Assembly (NCBI GenBank): GCA_001972305.1
Contig: BDDD01000019.1
Location: forward strand, 230,292 to 294,291
DNA: 64,000 bases
Direction of reading: 5' to 3'
Origin: Cephalotus follicularis
Lineage: Eukaryota; Streptophyta; Magnoliopsida; Oxalidales; Cephalotaceae
Shown: positions 1,371 through 62,790 of the stretch, piece by piece
Position numbering within the stretch: position 1 is the first letter of the stretch
How the letters are laid out: every line of letters begins with the position of its first letter
Program-made: the position numbers and the translations under genes
The notes under the pieces: generated by a model
Told to the model about the DNA's origin: nothing
Databases searched by the model: none
Seen by the model: the letters and a program-made list of their open reading frames with translations, nothing else

Positions 1371-1484
1371 CAGTCGACTGCTCTCAAGAATAGTCGGCTG
1401 TTTTGGTTGAGTTGTCGACTGTTTTCTCTTAACAGTCGACTGGATAGGGTTGAGTAGTCGACTGCCATGAAGAACAGTCGACTG
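1371..1484. repeat. CAGTCGACTG array, S1 downstream cluster, six monomers
   Basis: Monomers start at 1371, 1391, 1412, 1433, 1455 and 1475, giving steps of 20, 21, 21, 22 and 20 bp. Three are exact CAGTCGACTG; the others are TAGTCGGCTG, TTGTCGACTG and TAGTCGACTG. Spacer sequence between monomers is not conserved, so what is kept is the motif and its spacing. Confidence 0.9.
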
Positions 1485-2539
1485 CTTCTGCCCAGAACAT
1501 GCAGGCAGTAGCAGTTGTGTAATTTTTCAATGTCTAATGCAATCCAATCAATACATGCAATCAAGTAGGAAATAAACATACATGATATGCATAATATATC
1601 TTCCATAAACATGTCATTCCCCCTACCTCAATAGCTTATCCCAAGATCAATTGGAATGATCTTTCTCTTTGAGTTTCCAAGCCTCTTTCACCAATCACTC
1701 TTTCAATTCCAGCAGAATCAATCTATGTATGCATGTTTATGGACACATGCATTAGTACCAGTAGGTTTCAGTAATCTCAGGACAACTATAATTCCAACAG
1801 TAGTTAATCACTAGTCCAAGAACCTTCATAACTATCCTTTATTACCATATCTGTATGAACCTTATGTCAAGTATCCTTCAATTCCAACTTCTTGATCTTA
1901 AACGTGTGAACAGAAGGTGTGACTATACTTAAGGGAATCAATATACATTTATCTTGACAGTTAACAATAACTATAATCCAATTAGAGGTTATAAACTCCA
2001 TTTACACTTGAACCATTTATCACTTTCTATTTCAATTCTAGAAGTTGTTAATCTTTATCCATGTTAACAGAAGGTATTAAACATCTTCCTAGTCACACTA
2101 TCATCACATTAACAGTGGGTTCGAATTGGAAACTCACCAGGAGAATCCAAGCTTCAATTCTCTGTCTTTGAGCTCTCCAATTCCTCAAATGCAAGTTCCA
2201 ATGATTTTCCAGCCCCTCTCCTCTATCTTCAGTGTTTTTCTAACACACATTCAGCTCCTGGACAGCTGATATAAAGGTTGAGGAGCCTTGAATTCGCTAG
2301 GCTCCATTACTCAGCTTCTCTCCTCTTCTTCTCTCTCTTACATGCACCTCTTTTCTTACCTTTTCTCTTCTATTTTGTAGGTTGCAGGTCTGCAATTCTT
2401 ACAGAGGGAATAGAAGACATGCAAGGCACTCCCCTTGCATGTTATGGCAGCTGGTGACACGCATTTCGCATGCATGACACATTTAGAACACTTGGCATCA
2501 CTGTCTCTCCGTCTGCCAGGCGCCTGTTCTGCACCATTC

Positions 2540-2618
2540 CAGTCGACTGTCTTTGACAGGCAGTCGACTGTCCACACACGCATCAGACAGTCGACTGTTC
2601 CTCTGTGACAGTCGGCTG
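2540..2618. repeat. CAGTCGACTG array, S1 upstream (U3) cluster, four monomers
   Basis: Exact monomers are at 2540, 2561 and 2588, with CAGTCGGCTG at 2609. The steps are 21, 27 and 21 bp. The cluster lies 170-250 bp inside the minus-strand LTR start, upstream of the likely promoter. S2 shows nearly the same layout. Confidence 0.9.
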
Positions 2619-4522
2619 TCGATGGCTATTTTAGGGTTGCTTAAGTTTGATATTTCACCAATTGTACATCCATTCATCCCAAGCAATTACCAATCACAAT
2701 TTATAATAATTGGACATTAAATTCAAATGAGTGCACATTTTATAAATCAATATTACAATGTACACGAATTGGATTTACGGTTATTACAGCCAGGGAGTCC
2801 TCGGATCGTTTTATGAGTATATAAGGCTCAAGGTGAAGTCCTCGGATTTAAGTCAGAGGAGGTAAGTTATAGAACAATCCGAGGATGATTTGGGGTTGTA
2901 GTGGTAAATAATGATGTCATGTGTAGATGGGTGAGACTTGTTGAGCAGTCCTCGGATGCGCAGTCAGGGAAAAAATGCCTGTGGAGGAGCTGTGTCCTTG
3001 GGCATGAGTAGACCTAGACGTATAGTGGTCACACGAGGAGGACGTGATGAAGTGCTCTTTAAGGAAGAGCAGAGGAGAAATGCCCGTGGGAGAGCTGTGT
3101 CCTCGGGCGTGGTGCAGACCTGGGTGTTTGACGTGCACGCACAGAGAGCATGTGGGCATCCCAGGCTTAAGTAAAATGGTGAGTTTGGTTCCTCAATATT
3201 TTCTTTTGAGTCCCTACCCTGGCGTTCAGGTCTGGCATTATGCAAACCTTGGCGTTTTTTCTAAGTGAGCTTGTGAGGAGCACATGGGTGTTCTCCTCAG
3301 GCGTTTAGAAATGCGGCGCATTTTGGATGAAGGTAGTGTTGGTGACTTAAGTAAAACAGGGAGTTTGAGTCCTCAGACCCTTTGTCCCCTACCCTTTTAA
3401 CCCCACTTCTGTTACGTTGTGCCCAGACTTCCTCCTCGAACTTTTGTGTAACGCGTCCCTGGTGCGATCCTTAGTGGGTTGCTCTGGCGGTTTTGAGTAG
3501 TGAGAGTTGTTGACGTGGTGAGCCATCCTCACAGCGTATGTCTTCTAGAGCAAAGCAGAAACGGGTCACTCTGAATCCTATTTGCATGGCAGAAAGCAGC
3601 AGTTCTTAACCTATGCATCTGTCGAGGAACCTTTGACAAGTCTGCAAGTGACGTTTGGATGGCAGACCACTTACCATAACTTGCTTTTGTCATTTTGTGG
3701 GTTAATTTTACTAATTATGGGACACATGTCAAGTTAGGGAGTGAAGAATACATATATTTAACCTAATGACAAGACTAAAATAATAACCAGAGACAGATGT
3801 CATCTATTGAAATGAGGGAAATTAAGCACATGGGCAACTACATCGTAAATCAGCATGAGAAAGAGAAGCTTGCATCCCAAGTTCACTATTTATATATGTA
3901 TGTGTAGTCTTAGCCGAGGAAGGCTGTTTTCTACTAAGCTTGATAGGACAAAGGAACTGAAGGGAGAAAAGAAAAAAAAAAGGAGAGTTTTGCTAAGAAT
4001 AGTTCAGTATAAAGAAAGGGAGGAGGAAATTAAAGCAAAGTAAGGATTCTTACCCATTTTTCTAAAGTATGAAATGTCCTGTTTTTTCTAATATTTTATA
4101 GCGAATTCTTTTATTCATAACTTGTTCGTTTCTTGATGAAATTTAAAATGGTTGAATGTTTTAGAAACCGTGAGATGACGTCTAAAACTGTTATGTTTTG
4201 TATACTTCAAAATTCTATCATTTTCTTGATACAACTATGTGTTTAAAATTACTACTCATGCCCTGCTATTACATGAAAGCTGCAACTTTAAAAATTTATT
4301 GTAGTTTCGTTTCTCAACTAAAATTTATGAACTTTATACTCCTGAATTCGTTGGGATGTTTACTTTAAGTTTGATGTTTCAAGTTTTTCATGAAAATAAA
4401 TGTTACTCTATGAAATACAAGTTTTAGAAATGATGGACAATGTTGTTTTTATAAGTGTTCTGAGCAGGTTCATCGCCAGAGGTTTGTTTGCATTTATCAA
4501 TCGTTTTGGTCTCAGCAATCTT

Positions 4523-5787
4523 TCATTCTAGGAATTTGAGATGTCTCTTAGTGACCTCTAAGTCATAATAAATGGTGTCTTCAATCGTCTCAAATTCCAT
4601 ACGAATCACCTTGTGTTGGTTTTCCAACAAATCAAATCGAGAGTTGATAGACTTGAACTTTCCATCGATTGACGCTTCCATTGTATCGAATTGAACGTTC
4701 AGAGCATCAAAGTGAGAGCTCATAAAATCAACAATATGATCATACTCGGAGGTAGAGTATGAACCATGAGTATGAGAGAGAGAGCGAGAGGGATAAACTT
4801 CTTGAGTAGCTTCGTCACATTCCCATGGAGGGATTTCTTCTTGTTCCTCTCAGTTGATTCTCTGACTTTATCGCTTTTTGGACAGTAAGTCCAATTCCCT
4901 TCCTGCTTCTTCCAGCCCATGAGATTAAGTGTGATTTTGTTGTATGTATCTTACTTTTTCAATGTCGTTCCATTATCCCCCTCAACACGAATTTCATGGT
5001 AACGGAAGATTTTGGTTAAGATGCAACCAAAAGGAAGGACATATTTCTTTTGAGTAAAAGCACGGACCATTGTGTGAAGCATAAGCAATGGATAACAAAA
5101 CTTGATTTTGGAAATGATGCACCACATTAGGAATGCTTGCATCCTAGTGAGTTTTGCGTATCCACCACCGGTAGGAAGTAACTGGTGAACAATAAGATGG
5201 TGTAAAAGGTGATGATTAACATATAGTTTGTTGGTGCAAAGAGCCATATTGGGATGAATGTTTGGATCATTGGGGTAGAGAATTGATAAAATGTCATTTG
5301 GGTGGAAACCCTCAACTTCCGGCCACTTCTTGTATTAAAAAATATACAAGCCGGTGTGAGGAATATGAAGAATCGAAGCAAGAATCCTGGCATCTAGAAA
5401 GATTCTTTGACCATTAACAGTGGGAGAAAGGGCAAAATCTTCATTAGGACTAGAGACAATCCTTATGTTCATATAGAACTCCTTTACAAGCTTAACATAA
5501 AACATATCTTGAATTTGCACAAAAGGAAGAAGGTGCAAATTCTCAAGCCATGAAACAAAGGCAAACTCATTTGAACAAAAATATAAATCAATATTTCTAC
5601 CTCCCATTATCCGTTTATCAACAAAGACAACATTTCGAAGGGGAATGATTTCCTTGGATGCGGAATCCGATTCAAGAGCAGGATTGGGAGAAGGTTCCAG
5701 ACTATTAAGCTTTCGTTTTGAAGCAAGTTTTTCTTGCTTGGAAGAACTAATAGCCCTCTTTTTACTAACAGCTTTTGTTCTAGGCAT
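4523..5787 (-). pseudogene. Extra (env-position) ORF of SIRE-1, broken
   Basis: The minus-strand reading from 5787 gives about 150 residues starting MPRTKAVSKKRA, a basic N-terminus followed by a globular part with FVDKRIMGG, WLENLHLLPF and LDARILASILHIPHTG. It continues through shifted frames: MALCTNKLY at 5247, then MGWKKQEGNW at 4920. A final stretch at 4523-4723 has heptad-like spacing of hydrophobic residues, probably a coiled coil. The position behind pol is that of the env-like or plant transposon-type ORF of SIRE elements. I see no clear signal peptide or fusion motif, so an envelope role is not supported here. At least two frameshifts break the frame, and the product is a relic. Confidence 0.6.
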
Positions 5788-11254: not shown

Positions 11255-11356
11255 GCCAAAAATTGTTTTTATCCGTTGCTTAAATCATGGAGGTTAAGAT
11301 TTGAAAATCTGATGATTTGATGTAAACTCTGTTATGCAGCCATTGGAGCAAAGTCG

Positions 11357-11760
11357 TCGATGTCTTTGATCAGCGTTTTCTGTCTTCATCAGTTAACTAG
11401 CCTTTGTGAGCATCCGGGGCATAATTTTGGTGGAAAGACGTCGATGTCTATAATGGGCGTCGATGTCTTTTCTGGAGTTTTCCCTAGGCTTTGAAGATAT
11501 GAGCAACACATAGATGTCTTTGTAAAGGGATCGATGTCTTTTGGTTGGACGTTGATATCTTCATAGAATCGGATCGATGCTTTTCTTCAAAAACGACCTA
11601 TAACTTTTAGGCATAAACGCATCGATGTCTTTATAAACACATCGATGTCTTTGAGTTGAAAATTCGATGTCTTCTCAGAGATACATCGATGCCTTTGAAT
11701 GAAAACTGGCTGTAACTTTTTGTGCTAAAGATGTCGATTTGTTCTTTAAAATGCGTTGAT
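11357..11760. repeat. GACATCGATGTC-type array in the SIRE-1 U3
   Basis: Core (TCGA or one-base variant) positions are 11357, 11441, 11460, 11511, 11531, 11552, 11574, 11622, 11642, 11664, 11686, 11734 and 11756. Within groups the steps are 19, 20, 21, 22, 20, 22, 22 and 22 bp; groups are 36-84 bp apart. The typical plus-strand monomer is ACATCGATGTCTTT, related to GACGTCGACGTC by C to T and G to A changes at CpG. Upstream of the promoter, so in U3. Confidence 0.85.
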
Positions 11761-12911
11761 GTCTTTTATGTAAGAACTGTCTTTTTGCCTTTTGAGAGAT
11801 TTCAAGTATCTTGAACATAAAATAAACTTTTTAAAAGCAAATATGTTATCATAAAAGCTAGGATTGAGACTAAAACTGTCACACCCCGTATTTCCATTCA
11901 CGTACAATGGACCAGCATATGTGGTGATATCAGAAATTAAGCATAAAATAATATCCCAACATTTCAATTTCAAATCATAATTAAAAATTGCGGAAGCATT
12001 CTATAAGCCGGAATATAAAAATAATCTGTCCGCACGCATCCCATACTACGTACGGGTAAAACCACAATTATCCTTACATAAAAGGAAAATACAACACTAC
12101 GAGGTATGAACCGTTAAATCTCAAATTACAATACAACATCATAAATAATCAACCTTAAATCAAAATAAGAAGCTCTCCTAGCTTCAGCAGCAGTCTCCAA
12201 AAGTCCTTGCTTAATCTGAAATTGTAGGGTAGTTTAACACTGCAAACACACTTAGGTGGTGTTCTGGCCAACTCCTGGCACTCAGAATCACATACCCGTA
12301 GTCAGTGACAACCTCCGTCACCAAACCACGGCACTCATACACAATCAATACAATCAATTCAAGAATAATATTACATATATCATCAATATGCAATAGAAAG
12401 TAGTTTTCTTTAGAAACTATAACACTTCACTTATCGTACCTCTCTCTGGAGGAAAACAACATCACTTAAATAGTGGTTTCCAATTTGGGAAACAAAACAG
12501 TAAGTACCTCTCATATAGGAGGAAAAATCAGTAGTTAATTTGGCAATAATCATTCACTTGAAAATGATAGTTTGATTTCATAAATTGGATACATAGTCCA
12601 TAGTTGGTTTCAATCATTGAAATACATGTGGTGGTGGTGACACCAAAACAGTTTATAATACTGTGACAGTAGCACATTCAGTAACACTTATCATAAGTCA
12701 ATAATTCTTGCAATAAGAGTTTTCACTTGAAAATGGTGTTTAAAACCATGCATTGTGCATATAGTACATAATTCGTTCGATCATTGTAATACAAGTAGTA
12801 GTGATGTTAAATAACATCAAACAGTATATACTAGATGGTGGTAGCATATACAATTCAATAACAATAACAAACAGTAACAATTCAATCAATGTATGAATTT
12901 TCTACCCAGAA

Positions 12912-12982
12912 CAGTCGGCTGCCATGAAGAACCAGTCGACTGTTGGGTTGAGTAGTCGACTGCTTTGGGTGCCAGTCCACTG
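12912..12982. repeat. CAGTCGACTG array, S2 downstream cluster, four monomers
   Basis: Monomers start at 12912 (CAGTCGGCTG), 12933 (exact), 12953 (TAGTCGACTG) and 12973 (CAGTCCACTG), with steps of 21, 20 and 20 bp. S1 has six monomers at the matching place, so monomer number has changed while the spacing has stayed. Confidence 0.9.
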
Positions 12983-13999
12983 CCTCTTCCCAGAAAATGC
13001 AGAAATAGCAAGTCATGTAATGCTAATTCAATTCCCAATCAATTCAATACATGTAATTATGCAGAAAATAAACATACATAATATGCATACTCATATCTTC
13101 CATGACATATCATTACCCCTACCTCAAATCGCTATGCCAAGATCAATTGAGTTTGATCTTTCTCTTTGAGTTCCAAGTCACTTTCACCAATCACTCTTTC
13201 AATTTCCAGTAGAACCAATCTATGCATGTTTGTTTATGAATACATGCATCAATATCAGTAGGTTTCAATAACAATTCCAATAATAGCTTGATCATCAAGT
13301 GTTCTAAGTCTTAACTCCCATTTCAGATTTCCTTTGAATTTCATGTCAAGTATCATTCAATTTAGGATTCATGGATCTAATTTGTTTGACAGTAGGTATA
13401 TCCATACTTAGGAACCATTAAACATATATCATAACACTAACAACAATTTAAAATCTATTCTAGGGGTTATAATCACCATTTACATTTGATCCACTTACTA
13501 CCTCCATTTCAATTCCAAGGTTGTTAATCCTAATCCATTAACATAAAATATTTAACATTCCTAGTCACATTTTATCAACATAACAACAAGAATTTCGGAT
13601 CAAGGACTTACCAAGATTCTAAAGCCTCAAAGTCCTCCTTTCTTAGCTTTCTAACATCTCCAATGCAAGCCTTCCACAATCCTTAGTAACTCTCACTTCA
13701 CTCTGTGTTTCTAACACTCAAACAACATTCCCTCAGCAGATATAACTCTCAAGAACCTCTGAATTCGTCAGATTTGTTACCTACTCACATGCACTCACAT
13801 TTTTCTTTCATTCTTTCCACCACATGCCTCCCTCACTTCCACTTTCTCTCATTAATTATCAATTTGGTGGTTGGTGGTCTGCAGAGAACATGCAAACATT
13901 CCACTTTTCCATGTTCTGGCAGATGGTGAGACATAAGTGCCATTATCCCATCTGTCCTTCTTGTCCCTGCACATGCCAGGAATCTGTCCTGGAGCAAAC

Positions 14000-14079
14000 C
14001 AGTCGACTGGAATTAGTGGGCAGTCGACTGCCTTCTTCACGTGACAAACAGTCGACTGTTGCTCTATGATAGTCGGCTG
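14000..14079. repeat. CAGTCGACTG array, S2 upstream (U3) cluster, four monomers
   Basis: Exact monomers are at 14000, 14021 and 14049, with TAGTCGGCTG at 14070; steps 21, 28 and 21 bp. The matching cluster in S1 has steps 21, 27 and 21. Confidence 0.9.
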
Positions 14080-14265
14080 TTTGGGTTAGATTAGGGTTTC
14101 CTAGTCTTTGATACTTCACCAATTGCATATCAATTCACCCCAAACATTTACCAATCATAGAAATTAGTATAATTGGATAAATAACTCAATTAAAATGTAT
14201 ATTTTATTTCAAAATTGGATCAATATACATTAATCGAAGTTACGGTTATTACAAAAACGTCAACA

Positions 14266-22690: not shown

Positions 22691-25042
22691 GGTAAACCCC
22701 AGTTTTTTTTTATATGTACAGAATTGCATGTAATTGTTTGTACTTATACGGTATTGTATGTATGGATGTCATGGAATACATATGATATATACTATTGTCA
22801 ACATTTAAGTCTGTTTACGGGTATTGGGGATTCAGTAGAACTTAAACGTGGATTATGAGATTTTTGCCTAAATGAGCCTATTTCTATAAATAGGTGGTTT
22901 AGCTCTTTCTATTCCCATTTTCATTTATCGTTCAATTCTAGAGAGGGAGGGAGTGAGTTAGAGACAGAAAGTAGGAGAAATCAAGCAAGGAAAGTCTTTG
23001 GGATCGTGACAGAGTGTGGAACCTGAAGGGAGAAGCAAAACGAGGATTGAAGCAGCATATTCTCCGTTCTCAGCCAATTTGAGGTAGGTTCTACATATAC
23101 TTTGATTTCCATATTTTGATGGATTTGCATGATGGTAAGGTTGTGGATGGCTGTATACATGCTACATGAATGGAATAGGGTATGTGTTGTGGTTTAAAAC
23201 GGACTGAAATGGGAATCAAAGAGAGAATTGAGAGTTTAGGTTTATAGGCCTAATCCCTTTTCTCTCTAGATTAATGGGTTATGGGTACGGATCTGAAGAG
23301 TTAAAGTTGATTTTGTTTTACTCTCGACCTTAGGGGCTTATAGCTGCCTTTGGTTCGAATTTAAACAGATTTAAATGATTTTAAAATGGATTTTACAGTT
23401 GATTTGATGAAATGCCTGCTGCTGTCAAACCGACGATGCTTTGGCTATAGTCGTCGACGTTTTGATCGTGCAAACCGTCAACGCTTTGATTAAAGCGTCG
23501 ACGCTTTATGTGTTGCAAAACAGTTGACGCTTAGTGCACGCGTCGACGCTTAAGGTACAACGCTTTAACCGTTGATGCCTTGCATGAAGGCCTCGACGCT
23601 TTAACCGTCGACACCTTAGGCGCTAATCGTCGACGCTTTGGAAAAAGTAGTCGCCGCTTAGCACCCCGTTTCTGCCAAATCACCTTGTTTTCAACTCCAA
23701 GTGGTTTTTTTGTTCAAATTGATTCCATAGGAATCCTCCCTAAGGCCTTGTAGCCTATGTTAATCCTCTTTTAAGACATTTGATTGCTAAACCCATCTTC
23801 AAAGTGGATATTTAAAGAAAGTTTCAAGAAAAAGGGTTTTATTCCAATGGTTTTCAATTAATGGTTACGATAGCTCAATTGGGACATCCGAATGCGGATA
23901 TCCTAGTTGGACTCCCTATCCATTGTTTTTTAACTCCGATAGGGACCAAGAAAATGGTTAAGGAAAATGGTTTTGATGGATGGATCCTATGTGATCCTTT
24001 AGGGTTAGGTCCCTATCCTTTAAATGGAAATATGGTTATGGACTACATGTATTGTACAACTATGATTGATGGATTGTTATGGTTGAGACCTAACTGGATA
24101 ACCCATTCATAATCTTCATTTCTGTCATGAAGCATTATGGGTGTAGGTCACATATATTTTGGATATGGAATCCTCCCTTTTTGGGTGACCTACAAGCATC
24201 ACCGCATTGTGGAGTGATTTGCTATGTTATTGATATAGCATTGTCACGACATAGATCGTACATATCTCTATTATGGTATGGGCTAGTACCTTCGGAACTA
24301 GTATTATGGTATGGATTATGTGTCCGGTATTACCCAATGCTCCACACGGCTATAGCACAGAGGGTGTATAGACGATAGAGGTACTATCTCAGGCCAGAGA
24401 GGCAAAGGAGTACTTGACCCTATGGATTTATTGTCCCCATGGATGGTTATGGATTGCTTTTATGGGGTGTGTGCAGGCCTATGGCCTTTGATGTTATTAG
24501 GACAAGCAAAGTATACCACTGCTTATGGACGGTTGGTATACTGGCGCTGTCCACAATTGGCATTCATGCTATAATATGTCATGCATATATATCTGTTATA
24601 TCTGCTGCATTTCATTGCATATAGTATAGCCTACATAGCCATGGGTTGCTAACCCATTCTCGTAATGGATCAAATACAGGTGATGCATCGCAGTGAAGCA
24701 GCTCGAGACGGATCGGACATCCTAGTTAGTTTTTGGATGTCAGCTCAGATTATTGTTATCTACCTTCTGTATATGATTTGGATGTATAGGAGACACTTTC
24801 TATTCCATCTATTGACCTGCTGGGTTGTGGCAACGCCTAACATATATGTATCAAATGTTATGGAAGTGGTTGAGCATATCAATTATGAATGTTGAATGTG
24901 TTATCTTCCGCGTGCATATGGTATTTAAAATTTTAAATATGTAGCGTATTTTGGTGTATGATGGCACCTATGTGATGCATCGTATGGACGGACATGCCAC
25001 GTGTTGAGCCTTGGGGTCTTCCTCGGGGTTCGGGGCATGACA
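22691..25042 (+). repeat. Gyp-A 3' LTR
   Basis: It follows the polypurine tract AAGGAGGGGAGGG and ends GGGGCATGACA. The expected first bases TGTAAC are altered to GGTAAAC. The promoter TATAAATA is at 22885-22892, with a purine-rich leader after it. A GCGTCGACGC array lies about 540 bp beyond the promoter, so in the transcribed part. The LTR is about 2350 bp. No coding region is seen. Confidence 0.85.
23433..23655. repeat. GCGTCGACGC-type array in the Gyp-A 3' LTR
   Basis: Core positions are 23433, 23454, 23478, 23498, 23524, 23543, 23572, 23593, 23608, 23630 and 23651. Paired steps are 21, 20, 19, 21, 22 and 21 bp. The best monomer reads AAAGCGTCGACGCTTT; others are changed mainly by C to T or G to A, such as GTCAACGC and GTTGACGC. 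Confidence 0.9.
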
Positions 25043-31457: not shown

Positions 31458-31765
31458 ACGATGTCTTTGGTGAAAGACATCGACTCCTCTTTAAAATAGA
31501 GGAAAGACGTCGATGTCTTTCCTTGTTTATGTAGAGAACTGACCAAACACGTCGACGTCCTTCGAGAAAGGCGTCGACGCTTTTCAATAAAAATAGCCTG
31601 AGAATGCGCATCGATGTTCGGCATCGATGTCTTTCCAGGGGAGAGACTTCTCGAGGCAAAGACGTCGACGTCTTTGAAAGACGTCGATGTCTTTGCTGTA
31701 GAATCAAGGATAAAGCACTCAGATGAAAAAGACATCGACGTCTTTGGGCTAAGGGTCGATGACTT
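31458..31765. repeat. GACGTCGACGTC-type array in the Gyp-B LTR
   Basis: Core positions are 31458 and 31480, 31510, 31552 and 31574, 31611 and 31624, 31665 and 31684, and 31735 and 31756. Pair steps are 22, 22, 13, 19 and 21 bp. Monomers read AAAGACGTCGATGTCTTT or close variants, with one GGCGTCGACGCTT of the other dialect at 31571. Confidence 0.9.
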
Positions 31766-32289: not shown

Positions 32290-32514
32290 GATCAACTCTC
32301 CAAAACTCGGCCCAAAATCCAGAATATACATGCATGTGATCACAATACAATATCAATAGGTATAAGAGTACCTCAATTCAATGCAGTTCAGTACGGTCCA
32401 ATACGGTAAAATACGGTACGATGTATGCATGAACAGTACCAAAGGGAATTCAGGTTGTCACATTCTCCCCTCCTTAAAGGAATCTGGTCCCCAGATTCAT
32501 GATCAAACGATCAA

Positions 32515-36322: not shown

Positions 36323-36600
36323 CAGTCAGCTGGAATCCTTACCAGTTGGCTGTTCTGGGTCGAGCAGTATCAGTAGTCGACTGGTTCCTTCTACCAGTCG
36401 ACTGTCCATTAGGCAGTTGGCTGTTGTTCTTCAACAGTCAACTGTTACAGTACACCCATACGAGAACATTCCCAGATTGCCATTTCCTGGGCAGTATGAA
36501 GTATGAACAGTCGACTGCTTTCCATTGGCAGTCGACTGGTCCCATTGAGTAGTCGACTGTCTTCCTTTGACAGTCGGCTGCTCTGTGAACCAGTGGCCTG
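36323..36600. repeat. CAGTCGACTG array, Gyp-C downstream cluster, eleven monomers
   Basis: Monomers start at 36323, 36343, 36374, 36395, 36414, 36435, then 36508, 36529, 36550, 36571 and 36591. Steps are 20, 31, 21, 19, 21, a 73 bp gap, then 21, 21, 21 and 20. Variants are CAGTCAGCTG, CAGTTGGCTG and CAGTCAACTG. Confidence 0.9.
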
Positions 36601-37015: not shown

Positions 37016-38325
37016 TGTTTAGCATAAAAATGTGTTGTTTTTAATGAGTTATTTGTGATATTTTTATGCTTGGAATGGACTACTTTGGTTGTGTTATGTT
37101 GATTTTCAGGTACGGCTGCAAAATGACCAAAGTGCAAGAATACTACCCAAAAGTGTGCAAATTAGATCTTGAAAGAGTAAAGATTGAAGAATTGACAAAT
37201 TCGGCAGAAAACAGAGTAAAAGCGTCGACGCCTTTCATATGCATCGATGTCCTTTCTGGGTTTACATCAAAAGCGTCGACGTCTTTCTATGAGGATCGAC
37301 GTCTTTTCTGGGCAATACAACTTACCTTTAAGGGCTATGAAGAAGACATCGACGTCTTTCATCATAGGGATCGACGTCTTTGTGAAAAATTGACCTGTAA
37401 CTTTTGGACCAAAAGGGATCGACGTCTTTCACCTTAAGAGTCGACGTCTTTCAAGTGCATCTCAGCAAAACGCGATTTGTACCAAAAGACATCGACGTCT
37501 TTTGACAGGGATCGACGTCTTCTTCTGCAGCAAAAATAGAAAGTTAGATTTTTTGCCAGATTTTGTAACTAGGATTGCTTTATTTCTGTTTTTGATCAAT
37601 TTTGTAGTATAAAAACAATTTAAGGCCAGCCAAATCAAGTAGAGTGTGTGGAAGTAGCCACCTCCCTCCTTATTTTCTTTTAGTTTAGTTTTCTTAATGT
37701 TTTGTAGCTAGTTTTTCAAGGTTTAGGATTAGAACAAAGCCTAGATTGTTATTGTTTCAATTCCATCAATAAAAATCGTGGAATATTTCATTTGTTCTTC
37801 AATATTTCTGCCTTTGCACACACTTTGTCTATCTGATTAAAATCCACAAACATCTTGTTAGTGAAGCTGAAAGTTGGTGAATAAATGGTGCTTAAATCAA
37901 TGGAGTCTACTCATACGATTTGTCGCAACAAACACACTTCGTATAGACCTAGCATGACTACTCATACGTCTTGTCTGATTAAAATCCACACTTCGCATAG
38001 ACCTAGCATGTCTACTCATACGTCTTGTCATCACCACCGCACTCTGTATCGACCTAGCTGCCGTTGTTTATCAAGGTATGATCGTTCAATTAAATGGAAT
38101 TGTTCAATACAATCTGCGGTGAGTTTCTATACCCTAAAACCGCTTTTTAATTATATCTTTTCTTAGCTTTTATTCATTAGTTTGATAGTTTGTCTTGAAA
38201 CTTGGTATACTTCGCCTAGGTTGGATATATTATAACTAGTTTATCGTTTCCCTGCGTTCGACCGGTTACTGCATGATCCGTGCACTTGCGGCTTTAAATT
38301 TTAAAACATTCTTTTTATGTGAACA
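37016..38325 (+). repeat. Athila-1 5' LTR
   Basis: 1310 bp; the U3 carries the paired TCGA array at 37225-37515, the promoter TATAAAAA is at 37608-37615, and the rest is leader. Short repeats of a CTCATACGWYTTGTC...ACTTCGTATAGACCTAGC unit (about 60 bp) lie at 37909-38070. Confidence 0.92.
37225..37515. repeat. GACGTCGACGTC-type array, Athila-1 5' LTR, five pairs
   Basis: Core positions are 37225/37244, 37276/37296, 37349/37371, 37419/37441 and 37492/37512. Pair steps are 19, 20, 22, 22 and 20 bp; pairs are 32-53 bp apart. First-pair monomers mix the GCGTCGACGC and GCATCGATG forms; later ones are ACATCGACGTCTTT or GGATCGACGTCTTT. All lie upstream of the TATA box. Confidence 0.92.
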
Positions 38326-41334: not shown

Positions 41335-41894
41335 AACGGAAGCAAGCACTAATATTTTTGGATTTTCAAGCTGCATTGATTGAAGAGTCCATGGACTTTC
41401 ATGAGCCTCGTTATTTTGAGCCTCCATGATGATATTCGGTAAACCCTACCCCTTTGTTCTTTATTTTACTGCATTGTTTCTTATATTTGTGTGATCATGC
41501 ATTTTTCTTTTCTTTAGTTTGTTTCTAGTGCATTGAGGACAATGCAAGATAAAAGTATGGGGGGGTTTAGACCTCAAGTATGGGGGTGTTCTATGAATTT
41601 TTGAGTATAGATATATTTAACCTGTTTTCAAAGTTTTAATGAAATGAATTTTGTGTGTTTATTCGCTTGGAAAACACTCATGAGACAAAAACTCGTCCAC
41701 TAGGGCAACCTAGGGGTTTAAAGGCTTGTTGCATAAGCTAAATGCAATCGTGATTCCTACGAAAGTGAGTTAGTTTATTGTTTATGTTCTTGTGTGTGCA
41801 TTTAGTTTTTGTTTTTGTGTTTGCATGTGTTTTCTTGTTTTAGCTTTCTATTTGGTTTGCTTGAGGACAAGCAAAGTCTAAGTATGGGGGTATT

Positions 41895-43203
41895 TGTTTA
41901 GCATAAAAATGTGTTGTTTTTAATGAGTTATTTGTGATATTTTTATGCTTGGAATGGACTACTTTGATTGTGTTATGTTGATTTTCAGGTACAGCTGCAA
42001 AATGACCAAAGTGCAAGAATACTACCCAAAAGTGTGCAAATTAGAGCTTGAAAGAGTAAAGATTGAAGAATTGACAAATTCGGCAGAAAACAGAGTAAAA
42101 GCGTCGACGGCTTTCATACGCATCGATGTCCTTTCTGGGTTTACATCAAAAGCGTCGACATCTTTCTATGAGGATCAACGTCTTTTCTGGGCAATACAAC
42201 TTACCTTCAAGAGCTATGAACAAGACATCGACGTCTTTCATCATAGGGATCGACGTCTTTGTGAAAAATTGACCTGTAAATTTAGGACCAAAAGGGATCG
42301 ACGTCTTTCACCTTAAGAGTCGACGTCTTTCAAGTGCATCTCAGCAAAACGCGATTTTTACCAAAAGCCATCGACGTCTTTTGATAGGGATCGACGTTTT
42401 CTTCTGCAGCAAAAATAGAAAGTTAGATTTTTTGCCAGATTTTATAACTAGGATTGTTTTATTTCCGTTTTTGATCAATTTTGTAGTATAAAAACAATGT
42501 AAGGTCAGCCAAATCAAGTGGAGTTTGTGGAAGTAGCCACCTCCCTCCTTCTTTTCTTTTAGTTTAGTTTTCTTAATGTTTTGTAGCTAGTTTTTCAAGG
42601 TTTAGGGTTAGAACAAAGCCTAGATTGTTATTGTTTCAATTCCATCAATAAAAATCCTTGAATATTTGATTTGTTCTTCAATATTTCTGCCTTCGCACAC
42701 CCTTTGCCTGTTTGATTAAAATCCACAAACATCTTATCGGTGAAGCTGAAAGTTGGTGAATAAATGGTGCTTAAATCAAAGGAGTCTACTCATACGATTT
42801 GTCGAACGAACACACTTCGTATAGACCTAGCATGACTACTCATACGTCTTGTCTGATTAAAATCCACACTTCGTATAGACCTAGCATTTCTACTCGTACA
42901 TCTTGTCATCACCGTCGCACTCCGTATCGACCTACCTTCCGTTGTTTATCAAGGTATGATAGTTCAATTAAATGGAATTGTTCAATACAATCTACGGTGA
43001 GTTTCTATACCCTAAAACCGCTTTTTAATTAAATCTTTTCTTAGCTTTTATTCATTAGTTTGATAGTTTATCTTGAAACTTGGTATACTTCGCCTAGGTT
43101 GGATATATTATAACTAGTTTATCATTTCCCTGCGTTGGACCCGTTACTGCATGATCCGTGAACTTGCGGCTATAAATTTTAAAACATTCTTTTTACGTGA
43201 ACA
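41895..43203 (+). repeat. Athila-1 3' LTR
   Basis: It follows the polypurine tract AAGTATGGGGGTATT; further AAGTATGGGGG tracts at about 41551 and 41576 may be internal primers. The promoter TATAAAAA is at 42487-42494. Its array (42118-42405) matches that of the 5' LTR pair for pair. Four of seven early differences from the 5' LTR fall inside array monomers. Confidence 0.92.
42109..42405. repeat. GACGTCGACGTC-type array, Athila-1 3' LTR
   Basis: Same five pairs as in the 5' LTR, with GTCGAC at about 42103 and GATCGACG near 42390. Changes against the 5' copy include GACGTC to GACATC and GATCGAC to GATCAAC, both C to T on one strand at CpG. Confidence 0.88.
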
Positions 43204-43434
43204 TCCTTCCTCTTTTCCTTCCTTCACTCCTCACATGGCACTAAATGCCACACTCTCCTATTCACATGCATGCACACAATCACATGTCTGATTTCTCTGC
43301 CCCATGAAGTTTTGCATGATGCACAGGTGTCCTCTCCTTCCATCCATTCAGCTGTATGAAGAACATATGGCCTCCACTTCCAAAGTCAGTTGTAACATGT
43401 GATTTCTGTCACATGCAACAAACAGAGCATGATC

Positions 43435-43585
43435 CAGTCGGCTGCCTTTCCCTGGCAGTCGGCTGTTCACCTGGCAGTCTGTTGCCAAGTGTCACGACAG
43501 TTGGCCAGTCGACTGGTTCATCCTACCAGTCGACTGCCCCCATATGAAGCCATCCAGTCGGCTGGTCCTCCATACCAGTCGACTG
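43435..43585. repeat. CAGTCGACTG array, Gyp-C upstream (U3) cluster, seven monomers
   Basis: Monomers start at 43435, 43456, 43475, 43506, 43527, 43555 and 43576, with steps 21, 19, 31, 21, 28 and 21 bp. The final 21-28-21 run matches the U3 cluster of S1 and S2. CAGTCGGCTG and exact CAGTCGACTG alternate. Confidence 0.9.
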
Positions 43586-43807
43586 CCTCCAGTATAATTA
43601 CCAAGTAATCACACTTCTAAGTATGTAATTGATTAAAATCAACATCACCATAATTTGGGACAACATCATCAAATTCGGAAAAATCCGTCATTTTATTAAT
43701 TCCACAAATAAGGTACAATTACATTGTGAAATTACAGTACATGAAAATTACGGGCGTTACATCCACCCCTCCTTCAAAAGAATTTTGTCCTCGAAATTTA
43801 AAACAAT

Positions 43808-45988: not shown

Positions 45989-46821
45989 GATCCTCCTCCC
46001 GATTCCTCTTGAGCTACATTAGTTGCACTCTCATGTTTTTCTTTGTATTGCAGAACTTTGAGTTTGTAATTTTTGATGAATTATGTAAACGACAATGTGT
46101 GGTTTATGAAATTGATGTTTTATGACTATGTGTTTCAATATTTATTGTTTTGTGAATGTGGTTCCTCCTATTGCTTTGATCTTATTGTTAAAATTGAATA
46201 TGAATGCATATGTTGAGGGGGAGCTCTTCAATCCATCCTTTGATTGAGGGGGAGCTTCCGTTTCTCTTTTTGTTGTTTGACAAAAAGGGGGAGAAATATA
46301 TTTTGCATTGCATTTAAGGGGAAAGTACAAAAAAGGGGGTATATTGCATAAATGAAGTTGTATTTGGTGAGATATATATATATATATGCTTTGCATTTGG
46401 GGAGATATATGTTATAATGCATTTTTTGAAAGTTGCATTTGGGGGAATATGTTTGAGACTATATTGCTAAAGTTGCATATTTTGTTCAAAATGGATATTC
46501 ATTGAAAATCTTGTGTTAAACAAGTGTATTTTGATATCCCATATGCAATGGTTGTGATACAATTGATAATATTGGACTTTGGAACTAAAAATGGTTAAGT
46601 TTGTCAAGAATGTATGCAAAATGAGCATGTTTTGTCAATCATCAAAAAGGGGGAGATTGTTGGCCTTTGCCACCCCGTTAATTGTATCAACAGATGATAT
46701 TTTGATGATTAACAAACATATAACAATTGTATGCATAATTCTATGAGTTACAACTTCATATACTCACTTGATCTTAAGTCCAAAATGTGCAAAAGGCTAT
46801 TTCTGCAGGTACAGGGCAATC

Positions 46822-47289
46822 CAGCCGACGGTCAAGAAACCCAGCTGACTGCCAAGGTTGAGTAGTCGACTGCCATAGGTTGTGTAGCCGACTGGTTCTT
46901 CAACCAAGTCCAGAAATTGCAGGAACACATGATCCAGCCGACTGCCACAGGGGTCCAGTCGACTGCCATGGGTGCACATTTCAGGCAGTAGCTTCTGTAT
47001 CATTTTGACACCTCATCCAGCCGACTGAAGCAGGGCATCCATCGACTGCCAAGGGGTCCAGTCGACTGCCAGTGAATCCAACCGACTGTCACCAAATGTG
47101 CAATTTCAGGCAGTAGCTTATGTAAATCAATTTCAGCTCATCCAGCCGACTGGAACAGAGCACCAGCCGACTGCCAGGCTCCACCAGTCGACTGCCCAGA
47201 GGAAGCAGCCGACTGTCCACCACCAACGGCTATATTCAAATATACGCGCCATCAAATCCAGCTGACTGCCGTATAAATCCAGCCGACTG
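46822..47289. repeat. CAGCCGACTG / CAGTCGACTG array in the SIRE-2 U3, sixteen monomers
   Basis: Monomer starts are 46822, 46842, 46863, 46885; 46935, 46956; 47018, 47039, 47059, 47079; 47143, 47164, 47185, 47206; 47259 and 47280. Steps inside groups are 20, 21, 22; 21; 21, 20, 20; 21, 21, 21; 21. The predominant form, CAGCCGACTG, contains GCCGAC, the core of the dehydration-responsive element. The groups are separated by 50-64 bp stretches, several ending in a repeated TTTCAGGCAGTAGCTT segment. Confidence 0.92.
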
Positions 47290-47331
47290 GATTGTAACAG
47301 AACTTCAAAAATAGATTCGTTGGAGCACAAG

Positions 47332-47339
47332 TATAAAGG
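47332..47339 (+). promoter_or_regulatory. TATA box of the SIRE-2 LTR
   Basis: TATAAAGG, 43 bp after the last array monomer, matches the place and sequence of the SIRE-1 promoter. Confidence 0.7.
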
Positions 47340-47582
47340 CCAAAGTGGAGCATTCTTGGGGGTATCTCTTGCAATCAAAGTGAACATTCTTACTAGTCAA
47401 CTCAAGCAAAATTCCAAGCTTCCCAAACATCAAAAGAGATCAATTCGAAGCAATCCTATACACTACAAAGCTCTCATTTTTACAATTCTTATACACTAGA
47501 AGCTTTGTCCAAATTGAGCGATATTGTAAACAAATTCGAGCGAATTTGTAATCCTTTAAACATTTACTTTCACACATACAAG

Positions 47583-47583
47583 N
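47583..47583. other. Ambiguous base N
   Basis: The only N in the window, exactly where SIRE-2 LTR sequence gives way to Tork-like Copia sequence. The joint may be an assembly join, so linkage across it is not certain. Confidence 0.95.
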
Positions 47584-49035
47584 CTTCCTACATAGTTCCA
47601 ATGGTGAAAACCCAAGGAAGAGGCAGTTAGTGATAGGGGATATCATTCTAGAAAGGATCGAAAAACTTAAAAAGTAGAAAGCCTGCTTCTATTGTGGGAA
47701 GTAAGGGCACCACAAGAGATATTGCAGTATGTTCCTAAAGTCTAAAGCTGGAGGTGCCTTGGGGTCACGTACTTCTATGTTTTATCTAGCTCATAATGTA
47801 AGTACAACTTGGGTATGTGATTCAGGTTGTGAGGCTGACATTTCTAACTCTTTGCAGGAGCTAAGAGACGCTAGACAACTGAGAACTGGTAAAGCTTAGG
47901 ACTGGCACCATGGTTATGCATCGAGGATTCACACCAATGTTGTTGGCGTTTATGAATTGTAAATTTTTTGTAAATGGTTATGTAATAAAGGCCTGATCTC
48001 TGCATATAAATAACATTGTAAGAAACTAATGTTTTTGTTTCAAGTGTGTATAAGATGAGCTGAGAGCTCAAATTTTTGTATAAATTCCTTTAGTCTTATA
48101 CATCACCATGTTCTAGTTAGTGCAAGAGGCACGTGGACAAAAGAGATCTACGTCTTATACAATTACCATAACTTTACATTAACAATTCAATGAACTACTA
48201 ATAAAAGACTTTGAGAGACAAAAGATCTAAATCCTTCATACATTTTGCATTGTGGATTAAGTCATCCTAGCAAGACTAGATAAACACGATGGTTAAGGAT
48301 GGACTATTGGACATCTAGGACATGAGGTCCTTTCCAACGTGTGCACCATGTGTGGTTTGTGTGATAACCAAATCTCCCTTCTCCAAGTGTAGAGAAAGGG
48401 CAGTGGACATATTAGGTTAAGTCCACACTGACAGTAGTGAACCAATGTCAGTTAATGCAAATGGAGGTTTTCACTTCTTCATTGCTTTCACCAATGTTAT
48501 ATCATGTTTTAGGTATGTGTTTTGAGTGAAACACAAATCTGAATCCTTTGAGAGATTTAAGGGATTCATACAAGAAGTAGGTAAGCAAATATGTAAGCCC
48601 ATGTTAAGAATTCGGTGGAACAGAAGAGGGCAAATACCTATCTGCTAAATTCCAATATTATCTGAGAGATAATGGAATTATCTCTCAATGGACACCTAAC
48701 GGAATACCACATCTTGGTGGATATCCATATGGTGAAAATGGACCTCATTATGGGGTTATGCCCTGCAGTTGGCAGCGCACATCCTAAACCGAATTCCTTT
48801 GAAATTCGTCCCCTCCATATCTTGTCAGATATTTATAGTGGAGGAAACCCATCCTAAACCAATAAAGGATTTATGGATTATGTATGAAGGTGAGAACCTT
48901 CTAAGCTAGGGGCACGATCGAAATGTTGCCAGTCTGAGAGAAATCCTAAGGAGAAGCTTAGGATATTATTTCTACAATCCCAATGAACAAAATATGTTTG
49001 TTTCGCGTACTGCAGCATTCCTAGAGTGGGAATAC
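47584..49035 (+). pseudogene. Tork-like Copia gag-integrase relic, left part
   Basis: Read with stops, it has a knuckle CFYCGK-GHHKRYC at about 47688-47727, a protease block WVCDSGCEADISNSLQELR (the D-S/T-G motif preserved as DSG), integrase remnants (RYVF, KHKSESFERFKGFI near 48520-48560, AAHILNRIP near 48763-48795) and FYNPNEQNMFVSRTAAFLEWEYL near 48980-49035, the joint to reverse transcriptase. The reverse transcriptase itself is missing. Stops and frameshifts are frequent. Confidence 0.75.
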
Positions 49036-55762: not shown

Positions 55763-56667
55763 TGTAATAACCGCAATTTTCAATTAATGTATATTGTACA
55801 ATGATGAATAAAATGTACATTATATTGAGATTAAATGTCCAATTACCATATGAATTGTAGTTATTTAATTGTTGCAGACTAAATTGAATTGAATTGACAG
55901 TTGGTGGAATAAGCTTAGGGAACCAGAATTGGCGCCTAACAGTCGACTGTCGCAGGGTAACAGTCCACTGGTTGGCTCATGAAGGAATAGTCAACTGTCA
56001 GATAAAATAGCCAACTGGAAGACCTCAGACAGGTGTCTATGCATGGCGATTGAAAACAGAGCAAGGCGTGAGTGGTTTGGATAGGTGTTATTCTGGTGTC
56101 AAATGAAGAGAAACGTGGCAATGAAGAGTGATAACTGATTGCCATGAATGCCAGCTCGTGTTGTATGGAGGCTTGACCTTCTGAACTCCTGTAACCACAA
56201 AACAAAAGAAAACAGTAAAAAGAAAGAAGAAAACAGAGGAGAGAGAAGGAAAATGCCAGGAGAGTGAGTTAGAGAATTCAAACAAATTCCTCAAATGAAT
56301 TCATATATATCAGCTAATTCATTAGTGAAATTGAGTGTTAAAACGTTGAAAGGAGAGGGAATCATCTGCTACTATGTGCATGCTTTATTGGAGTTCAAAG
56401 TGGACTTAGAAGCTTGAAATCAAATTGCTAAGCTTCTGTTTATTATTCTAGTTACTATTAAGTTAATCGATTAGTATATACATACTTATTTCGTGATATA
56501 TATACCTACTGTTAACATGCAACTATAGCTTGAATTATGGAATTGGAGTTGAATTGAGTTGAAGGAGTGTTGAGCTTAAAAAGAAGAATCACTCAATTGA
56601 TTCTGGGATAGCGATTGAGGTAGGTTGTAGGATTTATGACATGATTATGAAATATATAACATGCATT
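55763..56667 (+). mobile_element. LTR S3, same family as S1/S2, plus strand, cut by Gyp-D
   Basis: It starts TGTAATAACCGCAATTTTC and parallels the reverse complement of S1 and S2 for 900 bases, including the promoter-like CATATATATCAGC at about 56297 and TTGATTCTGGGATAGC near 56598. It stops at 56667 where the Gyp-D LTR begins. ORFs of 60-89 codons on its minus strand have no conserved content. Confidence 0.85.
55940..56022. repeat. CAGTCGACTG array, S3 U3 cluster, decayed
   Basis: CAGTCGACTG is at 55940, CAGTCCACTG at 55961 (21 bp), then TAGTCAACTG at about 55988 and TAGCCAACTG at about 56009. Same place and same 21-27-21 rhythm as in S1 and S2. Confidence 0.85.
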
Positions 56668-58328: not shown

Positions 58329-59114
58329 CGACGGTTAAGCAATTTTGTACACTTCGTCATCCTCATTTCAACCAACTAGGGGAAAACAAGTCAAATAATC
58401 ATGCGATTCAGCTCATTTATTCTCTTAGATTACACATGCATAATCGGTTTGCATATCATAGTAATCATTCCAAGAATCCAAACAATCCAAAAAAAGCAAG
58501 CATTTCATGCATAATATCAATGGCATGAATATTAACTTCAATTCCAATTTTGCATGTATAAAACCACTACAATCCCCTACCTCTGGTTTCAAGTTAGAAA
58601 CCTTGAAAGTCCACCTCTTTGTGTTCCAAAATCTGGCCACAACAGCCTCAAGCTTCGTCCAGCAGCAGCACTCCACAAGCTCCAAGTCCCGAGCTTCAAT
58701 TGGTTCAACAATGGAGGAAATCCTCTCCTCATTCTCTCTGGTTTTTCCCTCTAACACCATTGGTTTCTCTCCTTTGTTTTCACAAGTGTTTACCCCGGAA
58801 AGCGGAGAAGAGAGGAGCATTTATGCTGGTAAAAACCTTCTCTCCTTCTCATCTGGTTTGCATGCACACACACACCCGTGTTCTTCTCATTCATTTACTG
58901 TTTTTGTTCTTTTCTTTGCTTTTCCGCAGGTTGCAAGTGATGAAGACTCACCTCTCTTGCATGCAATGGCTGAGGGCACGTGCTTGGTGCATGCCTGGCG
59001 TCATGCATGCATGACCAACATGTTTCATTCAACTTGCAATGGCACCTGAATACATGTTCCCCCTTGCACGTTTCTTGTCAGTATCAGAACGTGCCTCAGA
59101 TTCGACACTAAGCG

Positions 59115-59247
59115 TCAACATTTACATGCAGGCGTCGACGCTTTGGTCATTTCCTGCAATGGCGTTGACACATTCTTCCACATAGACGTGCATGTTTGTT
59201 TGACTCGTGTTTTATTGCCTTAGGCATCGACGCTTTCGATAGGGCAT
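59115..59247. repeat. GCGTCGACGC-type array, Gyp-D upstream (U3) cluster
   Basis: Cores at 59115/59135 (20 bp) and 59227/59247 (20 bp), about 200-330 bp inside the LTR start. The S family has its CAGTCGACTG U3 cluster at a similar distance. Confidence 0.88.
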
Positions 59248-59593
59248 CGACGTTTTAGGCTCAAAACAGTGTCATTTTGCTTTAAAATTTACTTTACCAT
59301 TTCTAGTAATTTTCACTTCCAAAATTCAACATTTAAAATTTGGAAAACATCCTCAAAGTTGGTAATTCTGCCATTCTCATTAATTCCATAATACGATCAC
59401 ATTTGAAATTAGAATATTACAATATGCAAAAATACTAAGCGTTACATCCACCCCTCCTTCAACAAATTTCGTCCTCAAAATTAAAACGATACTAAAACCA
59501 ATACGGGTAACGCTCTCAGATATCATCCTCAAGTTCCCAAGTGGCCTCATCCGGAAGGTGGAACTATCATTGAACCTTTACCATCGAAATGCC

Positions 59594-62319: not shown

Positions 62320-62394
62320 TGTAATGACCGAAAAATTTTGTAAAATTTTATTACTAATGTTGAGATTGGGAAATATTTTAAGGGACCCGTTCTA

Positions 62395-62500
62395 TGACCC
62401 TAACGCTTGGGGGGTTCGGGGGTTCCGCTCCCCGGCGAGCGGACGGGGGGTCCCGCTGCCCGGACAACAGGCAGGGGCTCGGGGGCAGCGCCCCCGAAAG
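62395..62500 (+). other. GC-rich segment with strong hairpins
   Basis: G and C runs of 5-6 bases surrounded by AT-rich DNA. TCGGGGGC and GCCCCCGA (62479-62497) form an 8 bp stem with loop AGC. G-runs at 62409-62422 and 62444-62450 could also form quadruplexes. No such segment is seen in LTR-E2, whose start is missing. Confidence 0.8.
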
Positions 62501-62609
62501 AAAATTTAAATTGGCTATTTGTGTTGAAACAGAAATTTGGTTGAAGTTATTGTTCTTAGTGCTGTATGTTTTGTGGCGATAAAAATGTCCATTTTAAAGG
62601 AGTAAAGCG

Positions 62610-62790
62610 TCGACAGTTGGCTAGAAAGCGGCGACACTTTCCTTCGTTTTCATTGCCTTTGTTGAAACACACACAACTGGCGACACTTTGAGGCAAAAGC
62701 GCCGACGCTTAAAGCCTGTTTTCTTTGATAATTCTGTTAACTGGCGACACTTTGAGGGCAAACCGTCGACACTTTGCGTTAAACGTCGAC
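62610..62790. repeat. GCGTCGACGC-type array in the LTR-E3 U3
   Basis: Cores at 62610/62631 (21 bp), 62680/62702 (22), and 62744/62766/62786 (22 and 20). Monomers are AAAGCGTCGACAG, AAGCGGCGACACTTT, CTGGCGACACTTTG, AAGCGCCGACGCTT, ACCGTCGACACTTTG and AACGTCGACGCTTTG. Confidence 0.88.

Follow-up and report, generated by a model that had tools for sequence, protein, structure and literature searches.

Arrays of directional, CGA-cored motifs at a step of about two helical turns in the LTRs of copia and gypsy retrotransposons of Cephalotus follicularis

Why should the LTRs of retrotransposons that are not otherwise alike carry arrays of the same short, nearly palindromic motifs, set about 21 bp apart? 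This question is raised by the window analyzed here, a stretch of 64,000 nucleotides of Cephalotus follicularis contig BDDD01000019.1 (coordinates are window positions), for which the initial annotation had proposed a spacing rule common to copia and gypsy LTRs. That rule holds, the arrays being located in Sirevirus, chromovirus, and Athila LTRs (table 1). Two motif classes were found, class 1 (CAGTCGACTG) and class 2 (CRTCGAYG, with flanks AAAG/CTTT); between them, they are distributed over Ty1/copia LTRs (Sirevirus) and Ty3/gypsy LTRs (chromovirus and Athila). The names “Tekay,” “Athila,” and “chromovirus” are structural assignments (chromodomain matches, LTR ends, and PBS).

Table 1. Motif arrays of the window and the LTRs in which they lie
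Feature	Position	Strand	Array and other details
Sirevirus (Ty1/copia) LTR	46658..47592	+	class 1 array 46867-47288; TATA-like words near 47271, 47331
Chromovirus-type LTR	177..2818	-	class 1 arrays 2544-2613, 1375-1479; 5' end not sharply defined
Chromovirus-type LTR	11876..14253	-	class 1 arrays 14004-14074, 12916-12977
Chromovirus B 3' LTR	30098..32462	-	class 2 array about 31480-31736; sites +726..+981
Athila-type (gypsy) 5' LTR	37016..38325	+	class 2 array 37221-37518; TATA at about 37607
Athila-type 3' LTR	41893..43203	+	class 2 array from 42105
Chromovirus C 3' LTR start	43361..43761	-	class 1 array 43435-43585; sites +181..+322; GAAGGAGGGGTGGA/TGTAACGC junction
Chromovirus D 3' LTR start	59081..59447	-	class 2 array 59132-59253; sites +199..+311; junction as in chromovirus C
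Chromovirus-type LTR start, fragment	55763..56063	+	class 1 sites 55944, 55965
Class 1 array	36373..36580	.	site scan
Class 2 array	11437..11692	.	site scan
Class 2 sites	23450..23636	.	steps 44, 45, 50, 37, none at 19-22

The Sirevirus LTR and its homologue at another sampled locus, L021, are recognized as such by PPT, junction, and poly-C signal: the PPT AGGGGGAG lies at 46648-46655, 10 bp ahead of the LTR start, and L021 shows the terminal poly-C signal together with a CATTTGGTATCAGAG junction. Counted from 46661, this LTR carries 13 class 1 sites from +207 to +624, with TATA-like words at +611 and +671. The array at 1371-1475 had been given a SIRE label, which was wrong, the arrays there sitting in a chromovirus-type LTR that shows full-length similarity to the L015 and L024 LTRs, both of which flank gypsy pol. 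In the chromovirus-type LTRs examined, no match to a TATA was found, and a further array is located about 1 kb into the LTR. The Athila-type element has an LTR pair 95.6% identical and a tRNA-Asp PBS at 38332, and the class 2 sites of its 5' LTR (+213 to +500) are located ahead of a TATA at +594. Chromovirus B displays a PPT/TGTGACAACC junction 56 bp past its chromodomain ORF and an LTR end in GTGTTACA; the assignment of 30097-32462 to an Athila LTR was rejected on this PPT/TG junction. The sibling chromoviruses C and D, once aligned, agree in the U3 location and the step of their arrays but not in motif class. The array at 36373-36580 had no similarity to the other loci compared. A coding origin of the class 1 arrays was rejected, steps of 20, 22, and 28 disrupting the frame, and no candidate emerged when the array of locus L001 was translated and searched against proteins.

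The step itself is found well beyond the window. Across the whole genome (1.58 Gb), exactly 21 bp separate the members of 25,896 of the 46,314 CAGTCGACTG pairs spaced 15–30 bp, a peak that bears out the hand-read distances, and for class 2, 34 of the 50 pairs listed at 18–48 bp (50 of 5,617) fall at 19–22 bp. A 264 kb sample, composed of the window and of 20 stretches of 10 kb chosen by contig number and hence non-random, yielded 99 sites of CAGTCGACTG with at most one mismatch and 49 pairs at 19–22 bp, whereas 60 dinucleotide shuffles of the same sample averaged 3.2 sites without producing any such pair; the corresponding figures for CRTCGAYG are 150 sites and 35 pairs versus 4.8 sites and none. 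With the all-N word removed, the strongest clustering among the 256 palindromic 8-mers is that of AGTCGACT (49 pairs at ≤60 bp), followed by CGTCGACG (22) and then by AT-rich words with at most 11 pairs each, CATCGATG having 4. The centers initially read are indeed present, at 1375, 1395, 1416, 1437, 1459, and 1479 (steps 20, 21, 21, 22, 20) and at 47147, 47168, 47189, and 47210 (steps 21, 21, 21). The step is thus real, but “nearly all” neighbors was too strong a wording: 67 of the 107 nearest-neighbor steps of 10–60 bp lie at 19–22 bp, over 16 array regions of which some are related copies. Another step, of 26–29 bp, is also in use in class 1, and steps of 19–22 bp amount to 2 of 8 in the chromovirus B LTR and to 0 of 4 at 23300-23800.

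The class 1 unit, CAGYCGACTR, is not strictly palindromic, since CAGCCGACTG pairs are same-direction in 19,109 cases genome-wide versus head-to-head in 270; orientation is uniform within nine of ten class 1 arrays. The term “TCGA-core palindrome” describes part of the monomers, dyad symmetry being complete save for the outer bases in 64 of 137 (TCGA) and broken in 44 (CCGA), and we regard the symmetry as partly incidental to a directional unit. Substitutions are concentrated at the Y of GYCGAC and at the outer bases. The core shared by the two classes, GYCGAC/RTCGAC, fits the CRT/DRE core RYCGAC; in the PLACE entries quoted in PMC9138379, such cores are given as GTCGAC, RYCGAC, and RCCGAC. RYCGAC is present on at least one strand of 106 of the 137 class 1 monomers, versus 100.7 ± 1.9 after column permutation (p 0.005), and of 121 of 144 class 2 monomers, a set picked for its central CG, 19 of which have ATCGAT and not RYCGAC.

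We consider it, on balance, probable that the arrays are U3 sites for a DNA-binding protein. Each motif would be a single putative site for a sequence-specific protein, the offset of two helical turns would make the bound proteins face the same way, and the proteins thus co-aligned on one face of the helix may act jointly on the LTR promoter; it is the binding, its cooperativity, the promoter activation, and the identity of the protein that we infer here. The idea, put forward with the initial annotation, that a 21 bp step suits proteins on one DNA face is supported. Helical phasing past the primary step is weak: over non-redundant intervals beyond the 20–22 bp peak, 10.5 bp phasing gave p 0.14 for class 1 (n = 16) and p 0.05 for class 2 (n = 48). 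A strong helical comb was rejected, as the blind all-pairs peaks at 10.4 bp (class 1) and 10.2–10.3 bp (class 2) come from redundant copies and from the 21 bp step. The binding protein would probably be a host factor. An AP2/ERF (CBF/DREB-like) factor would be the first candidate, a tentative one held with low confidence, because the shared core fits RYCGAC; if this holds true, binding to CAGTCGACTG and CAGCCGACTG is expected, and its loss on CAGCCGGCTG. The tomato Rider LTR, as described in passages of PMC6762207, likewise has a U3 carrying dehydration-responsive and CBF-type sites, although these are single sites and not arrays, and it was drought and ABA, rather than cold, that Rider responded to.

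On the whole, motifs are better conserved than spacers, with exceptions. In alignable families (10 class 1 and 22 class 2 LTR pairs, all counted), non-CpG bases are kept between related LTRs at 1006 of 1138 positions in class 1 motifs versus 1654 of 2525 in adjacent spacers, and CpGs at 215 of 248 in class 1 motifs versus 30 of 46 in spacers and 597 of 850 elsewhere, a comparison biased towards motifs in that a match in a single copy was enough for a motif to be picked and that arrays are possibly misregistered. In some LTR pairs motifs have no advantage, for example T1 and L024 (motif CpG 14/26 vs. 74/123 far from them) or L010 and L021 (32/42 vs. 80/92). It is unlikely, in our opinion, that a unit of about 21 bp was simply duplicated head to tail by slippage or template switching, with spacers that drifted, a motif that was homogenized, and no need for protein binding. 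Such duplication would agree with the uniform direction within arrays and with spacers that are more alike within arrays than between them (normalized edit distances of 0.559 vs. 0.637 for class 1, shuffled 0.659, and 0.33 vs. 0.46 for class 2, shuffled 0.617), but class 1 motifs are kept between spacers that are scarcely more alike than shuffled sequence, identical motifs and steps occur in LTRs that do not align, and sibling elements carry the two classes at one place. The earlier view of spacers as not conserved does not apply to class 2, whose palindrome extends into AAAG...CTTT.

The broken symmetry also bears on a role of the arrays at the level of nucleic-acid structure, either as hairpins in RNA or as a source of small RNAs, for which 21 is a known length; such a role appears very improbable. 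Were pairing maintained, a C at position 4, found in 57 of 137 oriented monomers, should be compensated, yet only one of these has the G at position 7 (0.4 expected, no excess), and among 21 bp pairs genome-wide, the compensated form stands beside CAGYCGACTG in 1,844 versus 19,109 with uncompensated CAGCCGACTG alone; moreover, the steps are not fixed, varying from 19 to 22. This is so even if the arrays, folded as transcripts, do better than their shuffled counterparts (z −2.7, −7.7, −3.3) and if, in maize Sireviruses, small RNAs have hotspots in LTR regions rich in palindromes, as stated in passages of PMC5311732. Quite improbable as well is that the motifs are targets of a silencing factor of the host or of an element-encoded anti-silencing protein, comparable to VANC of Arabidopsis VANDAL, rather than of an activator. 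In the passages concerned, VANC targets resemble our arrays as short motifs in fast-changing tandem arrays of noncoding DNA that vary between related elements (PMC5735166, PMC10398659), one motif even being common to an unrelated element (PMC5735166); they differ in belonging to DNA transposons, in their motif (YAGTATTAY or AGTTGTCC/AGTTGTAC), in being read by an element-encoded protein, and in that a step of about 21 bp is absent from these same passages (PMC5735166, PMC10398659). No candidate VANC-like protein was recognized by Pfam in 19 ORFs of the window, a small fraction of the elements' coding capacity, and a single protein would need to serve both copia and gypsy lineages.

We interpret the arrays as repeated regulatory motifs, mostly of U3, akin to the repeated motif (RM) boxes of Sireviruses and present in copia and gypsy alike. 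Palindromes in maize Sirevirus LTRs were reportedly the subject of a study in 2016. The initial annotation knew of no description of such arrays, a claim that does not survive the 2010 paper whose text passages and Table 3 present palindromic RMs of Sirevirus LTRs, termed Sirevirus-specific and left open as to function, two of them TCGA-cored, CGGTCGACCG in Vitis and ACAATCGATTGT in Tnd-1 (PMC2829016). The Vitis motif equals CAGTCGACTG except for two outer CpGs. RM boxes are defined there by at least eight copies, dyad symmetry, a CGG-CCG core (Tnd-1 excepted), and extra copies ahead of the ENV gene, and they share with our arrays the many copies of a short, palindromic or nearly palindromic motif in the upper LTR half, from 200–400 bp past the PPT and upstream of the TATA (PMC2829016), as in the Sirevirus LTR of the window in both copy number and position, the sites extending up to the TATA-like words. 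In contrast to these Sirevirus-specific, CGG-CCG-cored boxes, for which the text gives no spacing (PMC2829016), the arrays described here have a unit without the CGG-CCG dyad and reach other lineages, class 1 being found in chromovirus LTRs (L024 and chromovirus C of the window) and class 2 in those of Athila as well as of chromoviruses. What is added to the published RMs is the two-turn step, the presence in gypsy LTRs, the class difference between sibling chromoviruses, and the direction. Among the matches listed for the motif strings (titles and abstract starts), none was a plant-transposon paper, and those listed from the open-licence literature gave no description of the motif in gypsy LTRs.

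With the step, the direction, the substitution pattern, and the gypsy arrays, RMs become a concrete, testable binding-site hypothesis, which suggests that different retrotransposon lineages of one genome may share one regulator. A bolder proposal, which we hold as doubtful, is that unrelated copia and gypsy lineages of this genome arrived, by convergence or by exchange, at the same U3 module of directional CRT/DRE-like sites two turns apart, one host factor driving several of them together; siblings that swap class and keep position and step would then point to common selection on a promoter code that the lineages share. As separate observations on element structure, a copia pol is located between the LTRs at 177-2818 and 11876-14253, and the class 1-bearing LTR of the L023 type has a copia pol upstream, yet an end that is chromovirus-like.

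The TCGA-core palindromes that the initial annotation had read at 1371-1475 and 47143-47206 were found, upon re-reading of the sequence, to have the centres and steps reported there. Here, motifs were not chosen by eye: all 256 palindromic 8-mers were ranked by their pairs of copies at most 60 bp apart in a 264-kb sample, made up of the window and 20 further 10-kb stretches of this genome. Two of them stand out, namely AGTCGACT (61 sites, 49 pairs) and CGTCGACG (55 sites, 22 pairs), when AT-rich palindromes reach at most 11 pairs and CATCGATG reaches 4. With one mismatch allowed, class 1 (unit CAGYCGACTR) has 99 sites and 49 pairs at 19-22 bp in this sample, and class 2 (CRTCGAYG, flanked by AAAG/CTTT) has 150 sites and 35 such pairs, while 60 dinucleotide shuffles gave on average 3.2 class 1 and 4.8 class 2 sites and no pair at 19-22 bp of either class. 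At the scale of the genome (1,577,397,061 bases, 9,746 contigs), 46,314 pairs of CAGTCGACTG with 5-20 bp between them were retrieved, 25,896 of which are spaced by exactly 21 bp, against 150 pairs (89 at exactly 21 bp) for the reversed pattern used as a control. For class 2, 5,617 pairs of GCGTCGACGC with 8-38 bp between them were found against 7 for the control, and 34 of the 50 places among the matches listed are spaced by 19-22 bp. The class 1 control is itself a palindrome, GTCAGCTGAC, whose 150 pairs lie 15-30 bp apart, and is perhaps a minor third motif class that shares the 21-bp step.

As to the strictness of the spacing, 67 of the 107 steps of 10-60 bp between nearest neighbours fall at 19-22 bp across 16 array regions, related copies among them, with a second mode at 26-29 bp in class 1 and further steps near 31-33, 41-48, and 50-53 bp in class 2; the best period retrieved blindly from all-pairs distances up to 150 bp is 10.4 bp for class 1 and 10.2-10.3 bp for class 2. 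Once similar intervals are collapsed into one, 20-22 bp accounts for 25 of 41 class 1 intervals and 19-22 bp for 12 of 61 in class 2, and the 10.5-bp signal is weak in the non-redundant intervals of 23-75 bp (class 1, n = 16, p 0.14; class 2, n = 48, p 0.05). These non-redundant counts make the two-turn step firm in class 1 and the commonest one in class 2, a longer helical comb being no more than suggestive. A spacer word like ACACGCATCAG recurs in many of the 27-28 bp intervals of class 1 (e.g., window 2565-2592), possibly as a second site type within these arrays.

When each class 1 array is oriented by its T>C variants, the direction is uniform in 9 of the 10 arrays having at least two of them, and position 4 of the oriented unit is T in 75/137 and C in 57/137 monomers, position 7 being A in 132/137. 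Genome-wide, CAGCCGACTG pairs at 21 bp point in the same direction in 9,549 + 9,560 cases versus 270 head-to-head (tail-to-tail pairs being left out), and the compensated symmetric form, CAGCCGGCTG followed by CAGYCGACTG, accounts for 928 + 916 pairs. This same-direction excess and these compensated-form counts indicate that base pairing is not what preserves the class 1 sequence, which is palindromic when Y is T. Arrays serving as RNA structures or small-RNA sources would fit their strong predicted folding (z -2.7, -7.7, and -3.3) and the small-RNA hotspots described at maize Sirevirus palindromes (PMC5311732), but the symmetry is not defended. Class 2 is an 18-bp palindrome, AAAGRCRTCGAYGYCTTT, one half of which is better kept in Athila arrays. 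GTCGAC, RYCGAC, and RCCGAC are listed as CRT/DRE cores (PLACE names CRTDREHVCBF2, CBFHV, and DRECRTCOREAT; PMC9138379). RYCGAC occurs on at least one strand of 106/137 class 1 monomers, versus 100.7 +- 1.9 expected with permuted columns (p 0.005), and of 121/144 class 2 monomers, 19 of the class 2 monomers containing ATCGAT.

Between related LTR copies, non-CpG bases of class 1 are kept in 1006/1138 motif, 1654/2525 adjacent spacer, and 19578/28165 other positions (CpGs: 215/248, 30/46, and 597/850), and those of class 2 in 477/562, 2639/3574, and 37159/46945 (CpGs: 606/720, 97/132, and 1566/2073), knowing that a motif search by match in one copy gives motifs an advantage worth at most one branch of divergence, a bias that is even for CpG, and that arrays are possibly aligned out of register. 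The motif advantage is absent in some LTR pairs.

Sirevirus (Ty1/copia) and chromovirus and Athila (Ty3/gypsy) elements all host such arrays (see table). The LTR of L021, another sampled stretch, is homologous to the Sirevirus LTR of the window and ends with a poly-C signal and a CATTTGGTATCAGAG junction; the window copy has one N at 47583, where about 300 bp of L021 are apparently absent. The chromovirus of stretch L024 has two copies of one LTR enclosing gypsy protease, RT, RNase H, and integrase, together with a Met primer binding site (PBS), and its first array recurs in the other LTR copy (9226-9294). Among the chromoviruses of the window, B, C, and D show polypurine tract|TG junctions right behind the end of pol; C and D share 77% DNA identity over 43635-45955 and an identical junction, yet differ in class at the equivalent place, and scanning the LTR of A (14266-15223) revealed no class 1 or 2 site. 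Further class 2 sites follow the PBS of a copia element (L020) or belong to a family that is apparently nonautonomous (L009, L010, L021, and L022); the arrays behind a Met PBS occupy the leader, not the LTR.

Arrays and host LTRs (plain coordinates, window; +n, from LTR start; L, other sampled stretches)
Feature	Class	Location	Basis or remark
Sirevirus LTR array	1	46867-47288	AGGGGGAG begins 10 bp ahead of LTR start
L024 chromovirus arrays	1	about +207 to +275 and +1060 to +1200	
L024-type (chromovirus) LTRs		177-2818 and 11876-14253	
Athila-type LTRs with arrays	2	37016-38325 and 41893-43203	tRNA-Asp PBS
Chromovirus B	2	+726 to +981	
Chromovirus C	1	+181 to +322	
Chromovirus D	2	+199 to +311	
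Arrays behind Met PBS	2	L020:3852-3952, L009:9037-9319, L010:5093-5191, L022:9530-9789	150-590 bp behind PBS
Arrays without element assignment		11437-11692, 23450-23636, 36373-36580	scattered single sites and the LTR type of L023 likewise

Counted from 46661, Sirevirus LTR sites span +207 to +624 and TATA-like words lie at +611 and +671; counted from 37014, Athila sites span +213 to +500, with a TATA at +594. The chromovirus-type LTRs examined yielded no TATA match to the same pattern.

The initial annotation knew of no description of such arrays, but repeated palindromic motifs with the same anatomy, TCGA-cored ones from Vitis and Tnd-1 included, have been in print for Sirevirus LTRs since 2010 (PMC2829016). 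There, the motif is termed Sirevirus-specific, the comparison being with other Ty1/copia elements; the Vitis motif differs from CAGTCGACTG by a change of both outer CpGs, and the text of the article leaves motif spacing unmentioned. What the present arrays add to the published motifs is their occurrence in gypsy LTRs and the 21-bp step, neither of which we found described in searches of open-licence literature.

We propose that a putative sequence-specific protein may bind sites two turns apart, which would account for the step, for the class 1 motif being kept while spacers are free, for the Sirevirus and Athila arrays preceding the TATA box, and for the reuse across unrelated LTRs. The arrays were probably built by duplication of a unit of about 21 bp, which would account for their direction and for spacers being partly alike, and selection on the site would then maintain them.

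Elsewhere in the window, an ORF downstream of a copia RT (5338-5895, minus strand) weakly matches PF20167 (21.9 bits, cut-off 45) and is perhaps a Sirevirus ENV-like gene, and a tandem repeat whose period is about 127 bp occurs at both 26867-27160 and 63180-63737, 36 kb apart.
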